From Ruminococcus sp. (lineage in GTDB: Bacteria > Bacillota > Clostridia > Oscillospirales > Ruminococcaceae), in assembly GCA_017397925.1 (NCBI GenBank), contig JAFQHO010000010.1, forward strand, positions 1-59,465: 59,465 nt of DNA, given 5' to 3'. Under the pieces are notes generated by a model. That model was not told the DNA's origin. It did no database searches and saw only the letters and a program-made list of their open reading frames with translations. The position numbers were made by a program, and so were the translations under genes. The first letter of the stretch is position 1. Each line of letters opens with the position of its first letter. This document shows, piece after piece, positions 21,595 to 29,205 of the stretch.

Positions 21595-22281
21595 ATGGAT
21601 AATCTTTCAGAAAAGCTTATGGAGGAGCTTGAAAACCATACTGCGTTTACCATACCAATTTTTGGCGGTATTCCCGTCCCCGATTCATGTGCTGTTTCGT
21701 GGATAATCATTGCGGTGGTGGTACTTCTTTCAATCATCCTGACCCACAATATGAAAAAAGTCCCCAAGGGGAAACAGTGCCTTATTGAAATCGGCGTTGA
21801 GTGGATGAATAATTTTTTCCTTGATACACTGGGGCATCACGGCAAAAAGTATCTGCCCATACTGGAAACGTTCCTTATATACATAGGATTTTCCAATCTT
21901 ATCGGCATATTCGGCTTTGTTCCGCCCACCAAGGATATCAACGTAACAGTTGCCCTTGCGGTTATGGCGTCAATTCTGATACAGATTGCAGGATTTAAGG
22001 AAAAGGGCTGTAAGAAATGGGCAAAGGGCTTTTTAGAGCCAATGCCTGCAATGCTACCGATGAATTTACTGGAGCTTATAACCCGCCCACTCTCAATGAG
22101 TATGCGACTTTTCGGTAATGTTCTTGGTGCATTTGTAGTAATGGAGCTTATAAAGATATGCATTCCAGGCGGTATTCCCGTACCATTCAGCCTATATTTT
22201 GATATTTTTGACGGTGCAATACAGGCTTATGTATTTGTATTCCTCACATCTCTCTTTATGGCAGAAGCTATAGAGGAATAA
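21595..22281 (+). CDS. atpB: ATP synthase Fo subunit a
   Basis: Subunit a forms the ion half-channels against the c-ring. The 228-residue protein has about six hydrophobic segments. The conserved Arg helix is recognisable in MNLLELITRPLSMSMRLFGN, where the Arg of SMRLFGN is the essential residue, and the last helix has AIQAYVFVFLTSLFMAEA. AAAGGTGAT precedes the ATG. It is the first gene of the atp operon; no atpI lies upstream. The next gene is not atpE but an unrelated lipoprotein gene 16 bases downstream. Confidence 0.95.
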   Translation: MDNLSEKLMEELENHTAFTIPIFGGIPVPDSCAVSWIIIAVVVLLSIILTHNMKKVPKGKQCLIEIGVEWMNNFFLDTLGHHGKKYLPILETFLIYIGFSNLIGIFGFVPPTKDINVTVALAVMASILIQIAGFKEKGCKKWAKGFLEPMPAMLPMNLLELITRPLSMSMRLFGNVLGAFVVMELIKICIPGGIPVPFSLYFDIFDGAIQAYVFVFLTSLFMAEAIEE

Positions 22282-22297
22282 GTGCAGGAGAATATAT

Positions 22298-23245
22298 ATG
22301 AAAAAACCACTATTAACGCTTATACTTGCATCATTACTGACGCTTACAGCCTGCACATCAGCGGCTGATACCGAAGATAAGCCAGTTGTAACACCAACTG
22401 AAACAGCTACAGAATCAGCTACAGAGTCTCACACAGTGGAAATGACGGAAGCTCCCACAGAAAAATTGACAGAAACTGAAATTACAGATGTAACTGATAC
22501 CCAAAAAAGGCTTACCTGTTATATTGAGGGTTCTAAAGTATCGGGAGCAATTTATCTTCCAGAAGGTGACGGAAAATTCCCTGCTGTTATAATGATATCA
22601 GGAATGGGAACAAGTTATATTTCTCTTGAAGAAGATGCGAAAAAAATTGCAGCAGAGGGAATAGCTGTTGTAACCTTTGATTGCCGCGGATATTGTATCG
22701 GACACAGTTCAAAAGAGGGAAAATACACAGAAATTTCGTTGAAAAGTTCTGCAAAGGATATTATTGAAATAACTGATATTATCTCTGAATATCCTGCAAT
22801 TGATAAGGAAAATATATTTGTCTGGGGACACAGCTACGGCGGTTTAGTTACATCAAATGCAGCGGCAGAAAATCCAGACAGATTCAAAGGACTTATCGGC
22901 GTAGACCCTTCATATCAGATGCCTGATGAATACAGATTAACGCATTTAGGTAATACTGATATGCCCGAAACAGACAATCTGGCTTCCACAATTCAAGCAT
23001 CAACGAAAGAATTAATATTCACGGATATTTTTGAAAAACTAAAATCGTTCAATAAAAAAGCGGTTATTATAACAGGAACCGAATATACCATAGATTCAGA
23101 TGACCCATCAGTTTTTGAAAGAGCCTTGGAATCTATGCCACAAGCTGAAAAAATAGTAGTTGACGGTGCAGACCACTTTTTTTCAAAACACAAAGATGAG
23201 CTTATAAATCTTACTGTTGACTTCATAAAAGAAAACAGCGATTAA
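22298..23245 (+). CDS. Alpha/beta hydrolase lipoprotein inside the atp operon
   Basis: The 315-residue protein has a lipoprotein signal (MKKPLLTLILASLLTLTAC, Cys19), a Thr/Glu-rich linker (about 25-65) and an alpha/beta hydrolase domain. Visible motifs are the nucleophile elbow WGHSYGG with its Ser, an upstream ISGMGTS oxyanion loop, FDCRGYC, and a late GADHFF with the catalytic His. The third acid is probably in the EYTIDSDDP segment. This is the pattern of a secreted dienelactone-hydrolase or acyl-peptidase type esterase; the substrate is unknown. GCAGGAG lies before the ATG. It sits between atpB and atpE, in the same direction, where no gene is normally found, and looks more AT-rich than the atp genes. 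That suggests late insertion. Confidence 0.82.
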   Translation: MKKPLLTLILASLLTLTACTSAADTEDKPVVTPTETATESATESHTVEMTEAPTEKLTETEITDVTDTQKRLTCYIEGSKVSGAIYLPEGDGKFPAVIMISGMGTSYISLEEDAKKIAAEGIAVVTFDCRGYCIGHSSKEGKYTEISLKSSAKDIIEITDIISEYPAIDKENIFVWGHSYGGLVTSNAAAENPDRFKGLIGVDPSYQMPDEYRLTHLGNTDMPETDNLASTIQASTKELIFTDIFEKLKSFNKKAVIITGTEYTIDSDDPSVFERALESMPQAEKIVVDGADHFFSKHKDELINLTVDFIKENSD

Positions 23246-23685: not shown

Positions 23686-23913
23686 ATGGGATTAGTTGCT
23701 ATTGGTGCTGCTATTGCAGTTCTCACAGGTGCAGGTGCAGGTGTTGGTATCGGTATAGCCACAGCAAAGGCTACAGAGGCTATCGCACGCCAGCCGGAGG
23801 CTAAAAAGGACATCAGAAGCGCAATGCTTCTGGGCTGCGTACTTGCAGAAGCTACAGCTATCTACGGCTTTGTTATCGCACTTCTCATCATCATTATGCT
23901 TGGCGGTAAGTAA
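23686..23913 (+). CDS. atpE: ATP synthase Fo subunit c
   Basis: Subunit c forms the rotating ring. The 75-residue protein has two helices joined by the conserved loop ARQPEA. The ion-binding Glu lies in the second helix (VLAEATAIYGF). Compared with Na+-binding rings such as that of Ilyobacter, the Gln of helix 1 is Ile (VGIGIGIATAK) and the Ser after the Glu is Ala, so sodium ligands are missing; proton coupling is inferred. GGAGG at 23673-23677 fixes the ATG at 23686. Confidence 0.95.
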   Translation: MGLVAIGAAIAVLTGAGAGVGIGIATAKATEAIARQPEAKKDIRSAMLLGCVLAEATAIYGFVIALLIIIMLGGK

Positions 23914-23937: not shown

Positions 23938-24429
23938 ATGCTTAAATTTGAATTCTGGAATATCTTCTGGACTGTATTCAACGTACTTCTGCTGTACGTG
24001 CTGCTCAGAATATTCCTGTTTAAACCAATCAATAAAATGCTGGACGACCGCACACAGGCTGTACAGAAGGATTACGACGACGCTGAACGTGCCAGAAAAG
24101 AAGCTGAGGAGCTGAAAGCTGAATATGAAGCTTCACTCAGCGAGGCTAAGGAGGAGGCTGCAAAGATACTCCGCACCGCCCACGACGAGGCAGAAAACGA
24201 GCGTACAGCCATTATCCGCAAATCCCACGAGGAAGCGGAAAACATCGTTTCAGCTGCAAGCGAAACCATCGAAAACGAGCGCAAACGCGTTATCCGACAG
24301 GCTCATTCTGAAATTGCCGACCTTGCCGTTGAAGCCGCCTCAAAAATTGTAGGCGCAAATCTGGACGACGAGAAAAACCGCCGCCTTGTTGATGAATTCC
24401 TTTCCGCAGAGGAGGCTGACGCAGAATGA
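23938..24429 (+). CDS. atpF: ATP synthase Fo subunit b
   Basis: Subunit b is the peripheral stalk. The 163-residue protein has one N-terminal membrane helix ([20 protein letters not shown]), then [11 protein letters not shown] and a long Ala/Glu/Arg-rich helix that forms the dimeric stalk ([20 protein letters not shown]). The C-terminal part would contact the delta domain. CGGAGG precedes the start. The stop overlaps the start of the delta-alpha fusion gene by four bases (ATGA). Confidence 0.95.
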
Positions 24430-26450
24430 AAGATACAGCAAAGGAATTCCTTAATGAACTTCTTCGCCTTAACATAAGCCGCGAGGATATTGAAACGGCA
24501 AAAGGCATATTTTCAGCCTGTCCCGATGTAAAGGATACATTGGCAAATCCCCTTATTACATATGACGAAAAGAGAATTGTAATAAAGCAGATTTTCCCCA
24601 AAGCCCTTGAACGATCCGTGGCAAATGCCGCAAAATCAGGACTTATGGACGAAATCGAGGATATTCTCGACGCTTACCTTGACGCACTTCTTGAAAAGCA
24701 GAAAAGCATAAAAGCAGTTGTCCGCTATGTAACTCCCCTGACTGAAACTCAGCAGGCAGAACTGCGCCGCTTTATAATGGAGAAGTTCACCAAGGAAGAT
24801 GTGGACATTGAGTATAAACACGACCCCGATATTATCGGCGGCTTTATCCTCAGTGCAGGAGATGTGGAATTTGACCGCAGCTACCGCACAAGTCTCCGTT
24901 CTATCCGTGACAACCTCAAAAAGAAAGCAAACGAGGGCGTTACAATAAGCGGCGGAGAATTCAAGTCAAAGGATATTATATCCGTCCTGAAAACGGGAAT
25001 AAAGGATTTTGAAGTCCGTTCAGGAGCTTCCGAAACAGGCTTTATTATCCGCCTTGGAGACGGTATCGCCCGCGTCCGCGGTATGAGCGGCGTTATGTAC
25101 GGCGAGCTTGTGGAATTCGAAACAGGTGTACGCGGTATCGTTCAGAATATCGAGGACGATTCCGTTGGCGTCGTTCTTTTGGGCGATGACTACGGTCTTA
25201 CCGAAGGTTCAACTGTTGTCCGCACCTGCAAGCGTGCAGGAATAGGCGTAAGCGACGAGCTTTTAGGCAGAGTTGTAGACGCTCTCGGCTCCCCCATTGA
25301 CGGACAGGGACAAATTCACGCAGAGGATTACTTCCCCATTGAACGTGAAGCCCCGGGCGTTATTGAGCGTAAGCCTGTAAACGTACCATTGCAGACAGGT
25401 ATACTTGCCATTGACTCAATGTTCCCTATCGGCAGAGGTCAGCGTGAGCTGATTATCGGCGACAGACAAACGGGAAAGACTTCAATTGCCATTGATACTA
25501 TCATAAATCAGAATGGACAGGACGTAATCTGCATTTATGCGGCTATCGGACAAAAAACCTCGACTGTTGCTCAGGTTGTAAATACGCTGAAAAAATACGG
25601 CGCTATGGATTATTCCGTAGTTGTAACAGCCTCAGCGTCAGAGCCTGCACCATTCCAGTATATATGCCCCTATTCTGCAACAGCAATCGCGGAATACTTT
25701 ATGTCAAAGGGCAAAGACGTACTTATTGTATACGATGACCTTTCTAAACACGCCGTTGCGTATCGAGCAATGTCCCTGCTGCTCCACCGTCCCCCCGGAC
25801 GCGAAGCATACCCCGGAGATGTATTCTACCTCCATTCGAGGCTGCTGGAGCGTTCAAGCCGTCTTGACGATGAACACGGCGGCGGCTCACTTACAGCGCT
25901 GCCTGTAATAGAAACCCTTGCAGGCGATATTTCAGCGTATATCCCCACAAATGTAATATCAATCACCGACGGTCAGATTTTCCTTGAAAGCGAGCTTTTC
26001 AATTCGGGACAAAGACCTGCGGTAAACTATGGATTGTCCGTATCCCGTGTAGGCGGTGCGGCACAGACAAAGGCTATGAAAAAGGCGGCAGGAAATCTCC
26101 GTATCGACCTTGCACAATTCAAGGAAATGGAGATATTCACTCAGTTTTCATCGGAACTTGACCCTGCAACGTCGGAACTTCTTGCTCACGGTCATATGCT
26201 TACGGAAATGCTGAAACAGCCCTTGTATAACCCACGTCCCCATTATGAGCAGGTAATACTTCTGTATGCGGCTCAGCACGGACTTTTCAAGCACGTTTCA
26301 CCAAAGGAGCTTAAAGAGTACATCTCCGAGCTTATGAGCTATATCAACAGCTACGGTCAGGATATTATTGCGGAAATCGAAGAAAACCGCGTACTCACCG
26401 ACGACCTTATGGAACGCATAGAGCGTATTGTAACGGCATTTGAGGAATAA
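24426..26450 (+). CDS. atpHA: Fused ATP synthase delta and alpha subunits (AtpH-AtpA)
   Basis: One uninterrupted frame of 674 residues encodes two F1 subunits that are normally separate. Residues about 1-170 match subunit delta: [15 protein letters not shown] at the start, a six-helix-like domain, and the typical ending [24 protein letters not shown] short linker (about 170-182, [19 protein letters not shown]) leads straight into subunit alpha: [16 protein letters not shown], Walker A GDRQTGKT (345-352), [41 protein letters not shown] and [15 protein letters not shown]. No ATG, GTG or TTG occurs in frame at the junction; GGAG at 24954-24957 has no usual start codon after it. F1 holds three alpha and one delta, so a stable fusion would put three delta domains in one enzyme. 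Processing, unusual internal initiation or altered assembly would be needed. Confidence 0.9.
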
Positions 26451-26459
26451 GGTGATTTT

Positions 26460-28792
<2,333 letters not shown>

Positions 28793-28794
28793 CT

Positions 28795-29205
28795 ATGGCT
28801 AAAACCTTTTATCTGGAGATTATCACCTCCAACAGGATATTTTTTCAGGGCAACTGCGAACACCTTGTAATAACAGCTATAGACGGTCATTTAGGCATAC
28901 TTCCGGGCCACGAACCCCTTGTAACCTGCCTGCCTACAGGTGAGCTGAAATATATGGTTGACGGCATATGGAAACACGCCGCCATATCCGAAGGATTTAT
29001 TGAAGTTCTCCCCGACAGGGCAGTAATTCTTGCGGATTCCTGCGAACTTCCCGAGGAAATCGATATAAAGCGGGCAGAGGAAGCAAGGGAGCGTGCCGAA
29101 GAAATGCTCCGACAGCAGCAGAGTATAAAGGAATATTACGAAACTCAGGCTGCACTCAATCGGGCAATGAACCGACTTAAAATTTCGCAAAAGCATTTCA
29201 ACTGA
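28795..29205 (+). CDS. atpC: ATP synthase F1 subunit epsilon
   Basis: Epsilon connects gamma to the c-ring and can inhibit ATP hydrolysis. The 136-residue protein has the N-terminal beta-sandwich (LEIITSNRIFFQGNCEHLVI, DGHLGILPGHEPLVT) and two C-terminal helices (EEIDIKRAEEARERAEE and AALNRAMNRLKI). There is no separate ribosome site; the ATG lies two bases after the beta stop, so translation is probably coupled. It is the last gene of the operon. Confidence 0.93.
   Translation: MAKTFYLEIITSNRIFFQGNCEHLVITAIDGHLGILPGHEPLVTCLPTGELKYMVDGIWKHAAISEGFIEVLPDRAVILADSCELPEEIDIKRAEEARERAEEMLRQQQSIKEYYETQAALNRAMNRLKISQKHFN

Follow-up and report, generated by a model that had tools for sequence, protein, structure and literature searches.

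A clostridial delta-alpha fusion gene of F-type ATP synthase that retains the complete delta subunit, and its recurrence across Clostridia

The F1 head of ATP synthase needs its alpha subunit three times. In the ordinary bacterial F-type operon the genes run a-c-b-delta-alpha-gamma-beta-epsilon, and delta and alpha are made as separate chains. The closest described departure is an engineered one. According to the passages of Ueno et al. 2025 (PMC12229609) examined here, F-type ATP synthases had one peripheral stalk and one a subunit each before their fusion was built; the axial N-terminal domain (NTD) of delta binds the N-termini of two alpha subunits, and the authors conclude that this NTD restricts the enzyme to one stalk. 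They deleted the NTD and fused the truncated delta to alpha, since it might otherwise not hold to the ring. The resulting FoF1 of Bacillus PS3 works as a fusion, carries up to three peripheral stalks and reaches an H+/ATP ratio of 5.8 versus 3.0; three-stalk particles were few, which the paper ascribes to stalk loss in sample preparation. The same passages name natural fusions without the NTD, from Acidaminococcus fermentans and two UniProt entries.

Delta/b fusions are described in the examined part of PMC5709465, and the examined passages of PMC5706428 contain no delta-alpha fusion. Our search of open-licence literature by title and abstract opening, with subscription papers outside its scope, returned no natural full-length delta-alpha or b-delta-alpha fusion. 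A preliminary description of the locus studied here, made from the sequence alone, had stated that no established delta-alpha fusion was known; this mostly holds, except that Ueno et al. built an NTD-deleted one and named natural NTD-less ones.

We analyzed a stretch of 59,465 nucleotides from Ruminococcus sp. (GCA_017397925.1, contig JAFQHO010000010.1), hereafter the window. The preliminary description had reported one 674-residue frame with a whole delta and a whole alpha, the P-loop motif GDRQTGKT, no ATG, GTG or TTG at the joint and a GGAG at 24954, and all of this was borne out by the ORF, Pfam and TIGR00962 analyses and by inspection of the sequence. The frame starts with ATG and has no internal stop (Table 1). 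Pfam recognizes OSCP/delta at residues 19-164 and three alpha domains between 202 and 672; PF00213 (delta/OSCP) scores 86.4 bits against a gathering cut-off of 22.3, and TIGR00962 (F1 alpha) covers 180-673 with 745.9 bits against a curated cut-off of 484.45. Both the helical NTD and the C-terminal domain (CTD) align with solved deltas, and all 40 Foldseek matches to residues 1-202 with E ≤0.001 are ATP synthase delta/OSCP or b-delta chains.

In the AF2 model, the last delta helix (153-174) is followed by the linker at about residues 175-180 and then by the N-terminal helix of alpha; the whole-chain model is poor in alpha, and delta and the linker alone were taken from it. In a model of residues 1-202 the two domains resemble those of known deltas, but their mutual arrangement differs, with a typical-match rmsd of 12-14 Å over both, and we make no claim about the NTD/CTD arrangement from it.

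Table 1. Features of the fused ATP synthase operon, in positions of the window
Feature	Position	Strand	Basis and remarks
a subunit	21595..22281	+	Pfam, profile search
c subunit	23686..23913	+	Pfam
b subunit	23938..24429	+	separate gene; 3' end overlaps the fusion start by four bases
delta-alpha fusion gene	24426..26450	+	674 aa; ORF and domain profiles
delta N-terminal domain	24426..24701	+	residues 1-92; predicted to form six helices
delta C-terminal domain and last helix	24705..24947	+	residues 94-174
linker	24948..24965	+	residues 175-180; short, low-confidence; without start codon; sequence unconserved
alpha subunit	24966..26447	+	own N-terminal helix at 181-198
P-loop GDRQTGKT	25458..25481	+	residues 345-352
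gamma subunit	26460..27371	+	Pfam, profile search
beta subunit	27395..28792	+	Pfam, profile search
epsilon subunit	28795..29205	+	Pfam, profile search

Compared with the ordinary bacterial operon, the window has the same subunits in the same order, the full ordinary F-type set standing beside the fusion, but delta and alpha form one gene instead of encoding separate chains. The chain engineered by Ueno et al. (PDB 9jc1) resembles it in that the delta CTD is joined to the alpha N-terminus by a short linker within one chain; in phmmer, 9jc1_I aligns with residues 96-668 of the window fusion. The NTD-less relative L039 is colinear with that chain throughout, residues 6-579 aligning with 8-575. 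The construct differs in being engineered, in lacking delta residues 2-104 and in having been shown with several stalks, whereas the window fusion is natural and keeps the whole NTD. The Acidaminococcus fermentans protein and the two UniProt entries, compared here by the description in the examined passages, are likewise natural delta-alpha fusions in one frame, but they miss the NTD and the window represents a full-length type. The mycobacterial b-delta protein (solved chains such as 7jg5_d) also fuses delta to a neighbor within the enzyme, but the partner there is b; in the window the partner is alpha, and b has its own reading frame.

Between the a and c genes of the window lies a gene for a lipoprotein-like alpha/beta hydrolase (22298-23245, Pfam Hydrolase_4). 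The a-to-c gap measures 1350 nt here, whereas it never exceeds 419 nt among the other loci in which our patterns detected both genes.

The preliminary description had suggested a search for the same architecture among relatives, and the fusion proved to be widespread. Of 60 genomes in the same genus, 54 carry the fused frame without a stop across the joint, and in one more a contig end cuts it; two of the remaining genomes have an unfused gene only, and three (completeness 64-82%) have no match at all. The search model for the genus covers the delta CTD to the P-loop, so that we judged the presence of the NTD by frame length, with a check in four genomes (G000, G019, G135 and G877). All but one of the 54 frames reach at least 671 aa; the exception, G877, has a full-length delta part and its frame breaks later, inside alpha.

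We then classed 80 loci, consisting of the window copy and 79 of the best 80 relatives picked by likeness to the window (L042 was left out, having no P-loop pattern match): 27 are full fusions, 30 have only the delta CTD fused to alpha, and 23 have separate genes. A stop-free fused frame of at least 571 aa occurs in at least 59 of 298 genomes of the Pseudobutyrivibrio family (around G538, the genome of L026; Lachnospiraceae in NCBI terms), and such a frame occurs in at least 39 of 393 genomes of the class Clostridia, from at least 15 families, both being lower bounds since they were counted among the 150 matches listed in each search. Any match was found in 219 of the class genomes, and one more fused frame is cut by a contig end; a TIGR00962 search of the class (150 best matches listed) was left out of the fusion counts. 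A domain check on loci sampled from the class and related searches found both full and NTD-less kinds. Among the fused loci, L151 (G796) ends its alpha part in a charged tail of about 80 residues, and in L155 (G237) a stretch of about 21 residues occurs in three near-identical tandem copies ahead of the delta CTD.

On a tree of the alpha core plus beta with 81 rows, the distribution of fused and separate genes takes 6 changes and that of the three states takes 12, a count also obtained in another analysis, there against a shuffled mean of 38.7. AU tests, run on a quick tree with groups named after the tree was seen, reject monophyly of the fused rows, of the full rows and of the NTD-less rows, and on this basis we reject the view that all fusions go back to one origin. 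With full support, the nine Ruminococcus rows group together in a clade apart from the Lachnospiraceae rows. NTD-less L039 and L063 fall within a supported clade with seven full fusions, which suggests that the NTD was lost after fusion there. Since the tree alone cannot polarize the changes, we infer that the main direction was from separate genes to fusion, and the window locus may stand for a fused stage in which the NTD is still not lost. Loss of a stop codon alone was rejected as the origin, as delta and alpha share a frame in only 5 of the 23 separate loci. The delta-alpha fusions are thus real, conserved and recurrent across Clostridia.

How would such a protein fit into an enzyme with three alpha subunits? 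The reading that we favor, with modest confidence, is that the gene gives one uncut delta-alpha polypeptide, that three copies enter each F1 head, and that one NTD is seated on the axis with a single stalk. Every alpha would carry its own delta CTD, the part that holds the b dimer, on a short linker near the alpha N-terminal helix. One of the three NTDs would most likely be seated in the dimple at the center of the F1 top, one b2 stalk would be bound, and the other two delta domains would be spare. The preliminary description had listed three deltas with two idle among its options; for the full-length form this is the most economical one, but more than one stalk is a live alternative.

Part of the evidence concerns the state of the NTD. 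We could compute its dN/dS for three of four pairs, with values of 0.10 and 0.11 (both at dS above 2) and 0.18, so selection keeps the NTD in the window's clade. This upkeep is compatible with use of the NTD in at least one of the three copies. We also scored the NTD with a profile of unfused deltas, trained on 18 of 20 deltas (L104 and L106 left out). The median was 27.2 bits in 32 full fusions versus 37.2 in 24 separate deltas (p 5e-7, kinship ignored), and the CTD score was not weaker in full fusions (36.5 versus 33.0 bits in separate ones, kinship again ignored). The ratio of NTD to CTD divergence is highest in Ruminococcus (2.5), against 1.2-2.0 in other full clades and 1.2-1.5 in separate clades. 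The low profile score and the high Ruminococcus ratio are compatible with a weakening NTD. However, NTD/alpha divergence is not raised in fused clades (4.0-5.3 versus 5.4-7.8 in separate ones), and CTD/alpha divergence is lower there (2.0-3.7 versus 3.8-5.6). Relaxed selection on the NTD after fusion is hinted at by the profile scores and the NTD/CTD ratio but not by the NTD/alpha ratios, and we do not claim it. No alpha frame was found in L116, L122, L124 and L127 of 20 further stretches, and neither L123, which a contig end cuts, nor L125 and L126, in which the genes are separate, entered the profile, start-codon and divergence sets.

A serious alternative, above all for the NTD-less and b-delta-alpha relatives, is that the fusion stays uncut and two or all three of the delta CTDs are engaged, every one of them binding a separate b dimer that pairs with an a subunit of its own, giving several stalks and a higher ion-to-ATP ratio. 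The engineered NTD-less enzyme, with its additional stalks and raised H+/ATP in the examined passages of PMC12229609, and the colinearity of L039 with that chain speak for it. Moreover, G605, from the family around G538, has a 778-aa gene (L160 7156-9492, also L150) that joins b (Pfam 9-137), the C-terminal part of delta and alpha in an operon of the order a, c, b-delta-alpha, gamma, beta, epsilon. We found no separate b gene in this operon, and the b-delta part had a single match in the genome by a similarity search that a distant b could escape. If uncut, this product would force three b per F1, that is, three per three alpha. It should be weighed that b-delta-alpha is known from this one genome, the sole representative of its genus examined. 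For the window, the NTD kept under purifying selection counts against several stalks, given the restriction to one stalk that Ueno et al. conclude for an axial NTD, as does the scarcity of three-stalk particles in their preparations, and we regard several stalks as unlikely there.

A further gene with an added N-terminal part was found in G120, in the window's family (L161 8900-11149, also L115), where a separate b is followed by a 749-aa gene with the delta CTD and alpha. Its N-terminus has a membrane-helix-like and charged stretch that Pfam does not recognize as b, and the gene may be a second b fused to delta-alpha.

Another explanation is that the product is a polyprotein that is cut, or that alpha is also made from an internal start, which would restore the usual stoichiometry of delta1 alpha3. 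Both options had been raised in the preliminary description, and both are disfavored. All 23 loci with unfused alpha genes have a Shine-Dalgarno (SD)-like sequence and a start at a distance of 167-172 codons upstream of the P-loop. The window has a GGAG at 24954-24957, which would suit a restart, but GGC occupies the position at which alpha genes usually start (residue 176), and no ATG, GTG or TTG occurs in codons 156-200. Across the joints of 70 fused loci (32 full, 38 NTD-less), start codons are below the background of the rest of the gene (0.029 versus 0.047 per codon) and SD-preceded ones are at background (0.0063 versus 0.0070). Nevertheless, 14 of the 70 loci, including 9 of the 32 full ones, have at least one SD-preceded start at the joint, and the window has none. 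The most start-like is in the close relatives L009 and L010 (GTG with GAGGT, 171 codons before the P-loop, the usual place), where a separate alpha from an internal start is possible. At the linker, dS in the closest pair (0.44) is similar to that of the flanks (0.35-0.52). An internal start as a shared feature, sought through starts with SD-like sequences and a dip in synonymous change, is thus unsupported despite the 14 loci.

Cutting is disfavored because of the NTD-less fusions and the unconserved linker. The linker has the highest dN of five regions (mean 0.785, 45 pairs from 10 Ruminococcus loci), and no shared motif was found in it across these 10 loci. The NTD-less fusions, which make up 30 of the 80 classed loci, provide the strongest argument, one of logic: their chain should stay whole because a free NTD-less delta would miss the domain that seats delta on alpha. 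Three of the genomes with the eight confirmed NTD-less loci in the window's family (G061, G066 and G084) have no other delta match, and in five of the eight a separate delta lies elsewhere in the genome. That the natural NTD-less forms look like the solution of Ueno et al. argues, by analogy, that their chain stays whole, and this would extend to the full-length window form by kinship, not as proof. Taken together, we consider cutting or restarting quite unlikely, and we infer with good confidence that the fusion product is uncut.

One might also take the fused operon for a redundant copy, or for one in decay. On its contig C10, the source genome, a draft of 87 contigs, encodes a second, ordinary F-ATPase in the order a-c-b-delta-alpha-gamma-beta-epsilon (L085), in which delta (179 aa) and alpha (497 aa) are separate. 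Against this stands that, of the 55 fused genomes in the genus, only 4 show a second F1 alpha and 51 have none in a search with E up to 1e-20. Pfam matches span most of the length of each subunit of the fused operon, and dN/dS is low in both delta and alpha of fused genes. A spare or decaying copy is thus very unlikely.

In the c subunit of L085, helix 1 contains a Glu and helix 2 the motif ETTGLY; judged by its sequence, this subunit presumably resembles the two-carboxylate sodium type, and we take the window c subunit to have a proton-type look. In L008-L011 and L163 (Ruminococcus), two c-subunit frames adjoin in several loci, some of them broken or masked in drafts.

We also examined companion ATPases more broadly. 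A second F-type or a V/A-type ATPase was present in 16 of 17 fused genomes, none of which had both. In the family around G538, companions were found in 34 of 40 fused versus 35 of 40 unfused genomes (p = 1), and a fusion-specific companion was rejected. The kind of companion did differ, kinship ignored: V/A-type in 10 of 40 fused versus 30 of 40 unfused genomes, and two F-types in 24 versus 14, with V/A-type matches below that family's curated cut-off. V/A-type together with two F-types occurred in 0 of 40 fused versus 9 of 40 unfused. These sets were hand-picked (40 of 59 fused and 40 of 55 unfused, among the matches listed), and an "unfused" genome may hold an unlisted fusion.

An assembly or frameshift artefact, for which only the draft state of the source might speak, is refuted by the independent genus genomes with the same fused frame and by isolates such as Pseudobutyrivibrio xylanivorans DSM 14809, which carries a full-length fusion. 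Butyrivibrio hungatei DSM 14810 and Shuttleworthella satelles DSM 14600 are isolates with the NTD-less form.

The same delta-alpha joint has thus evolved several times, with the NTD kept or lost, also in culture-collection isolates. The full-length and NTD-less fusions provide natural pairs for asking whether the NTD sets the stalk number and whether these anaerobes differ in their ion-to-ATP ratio.
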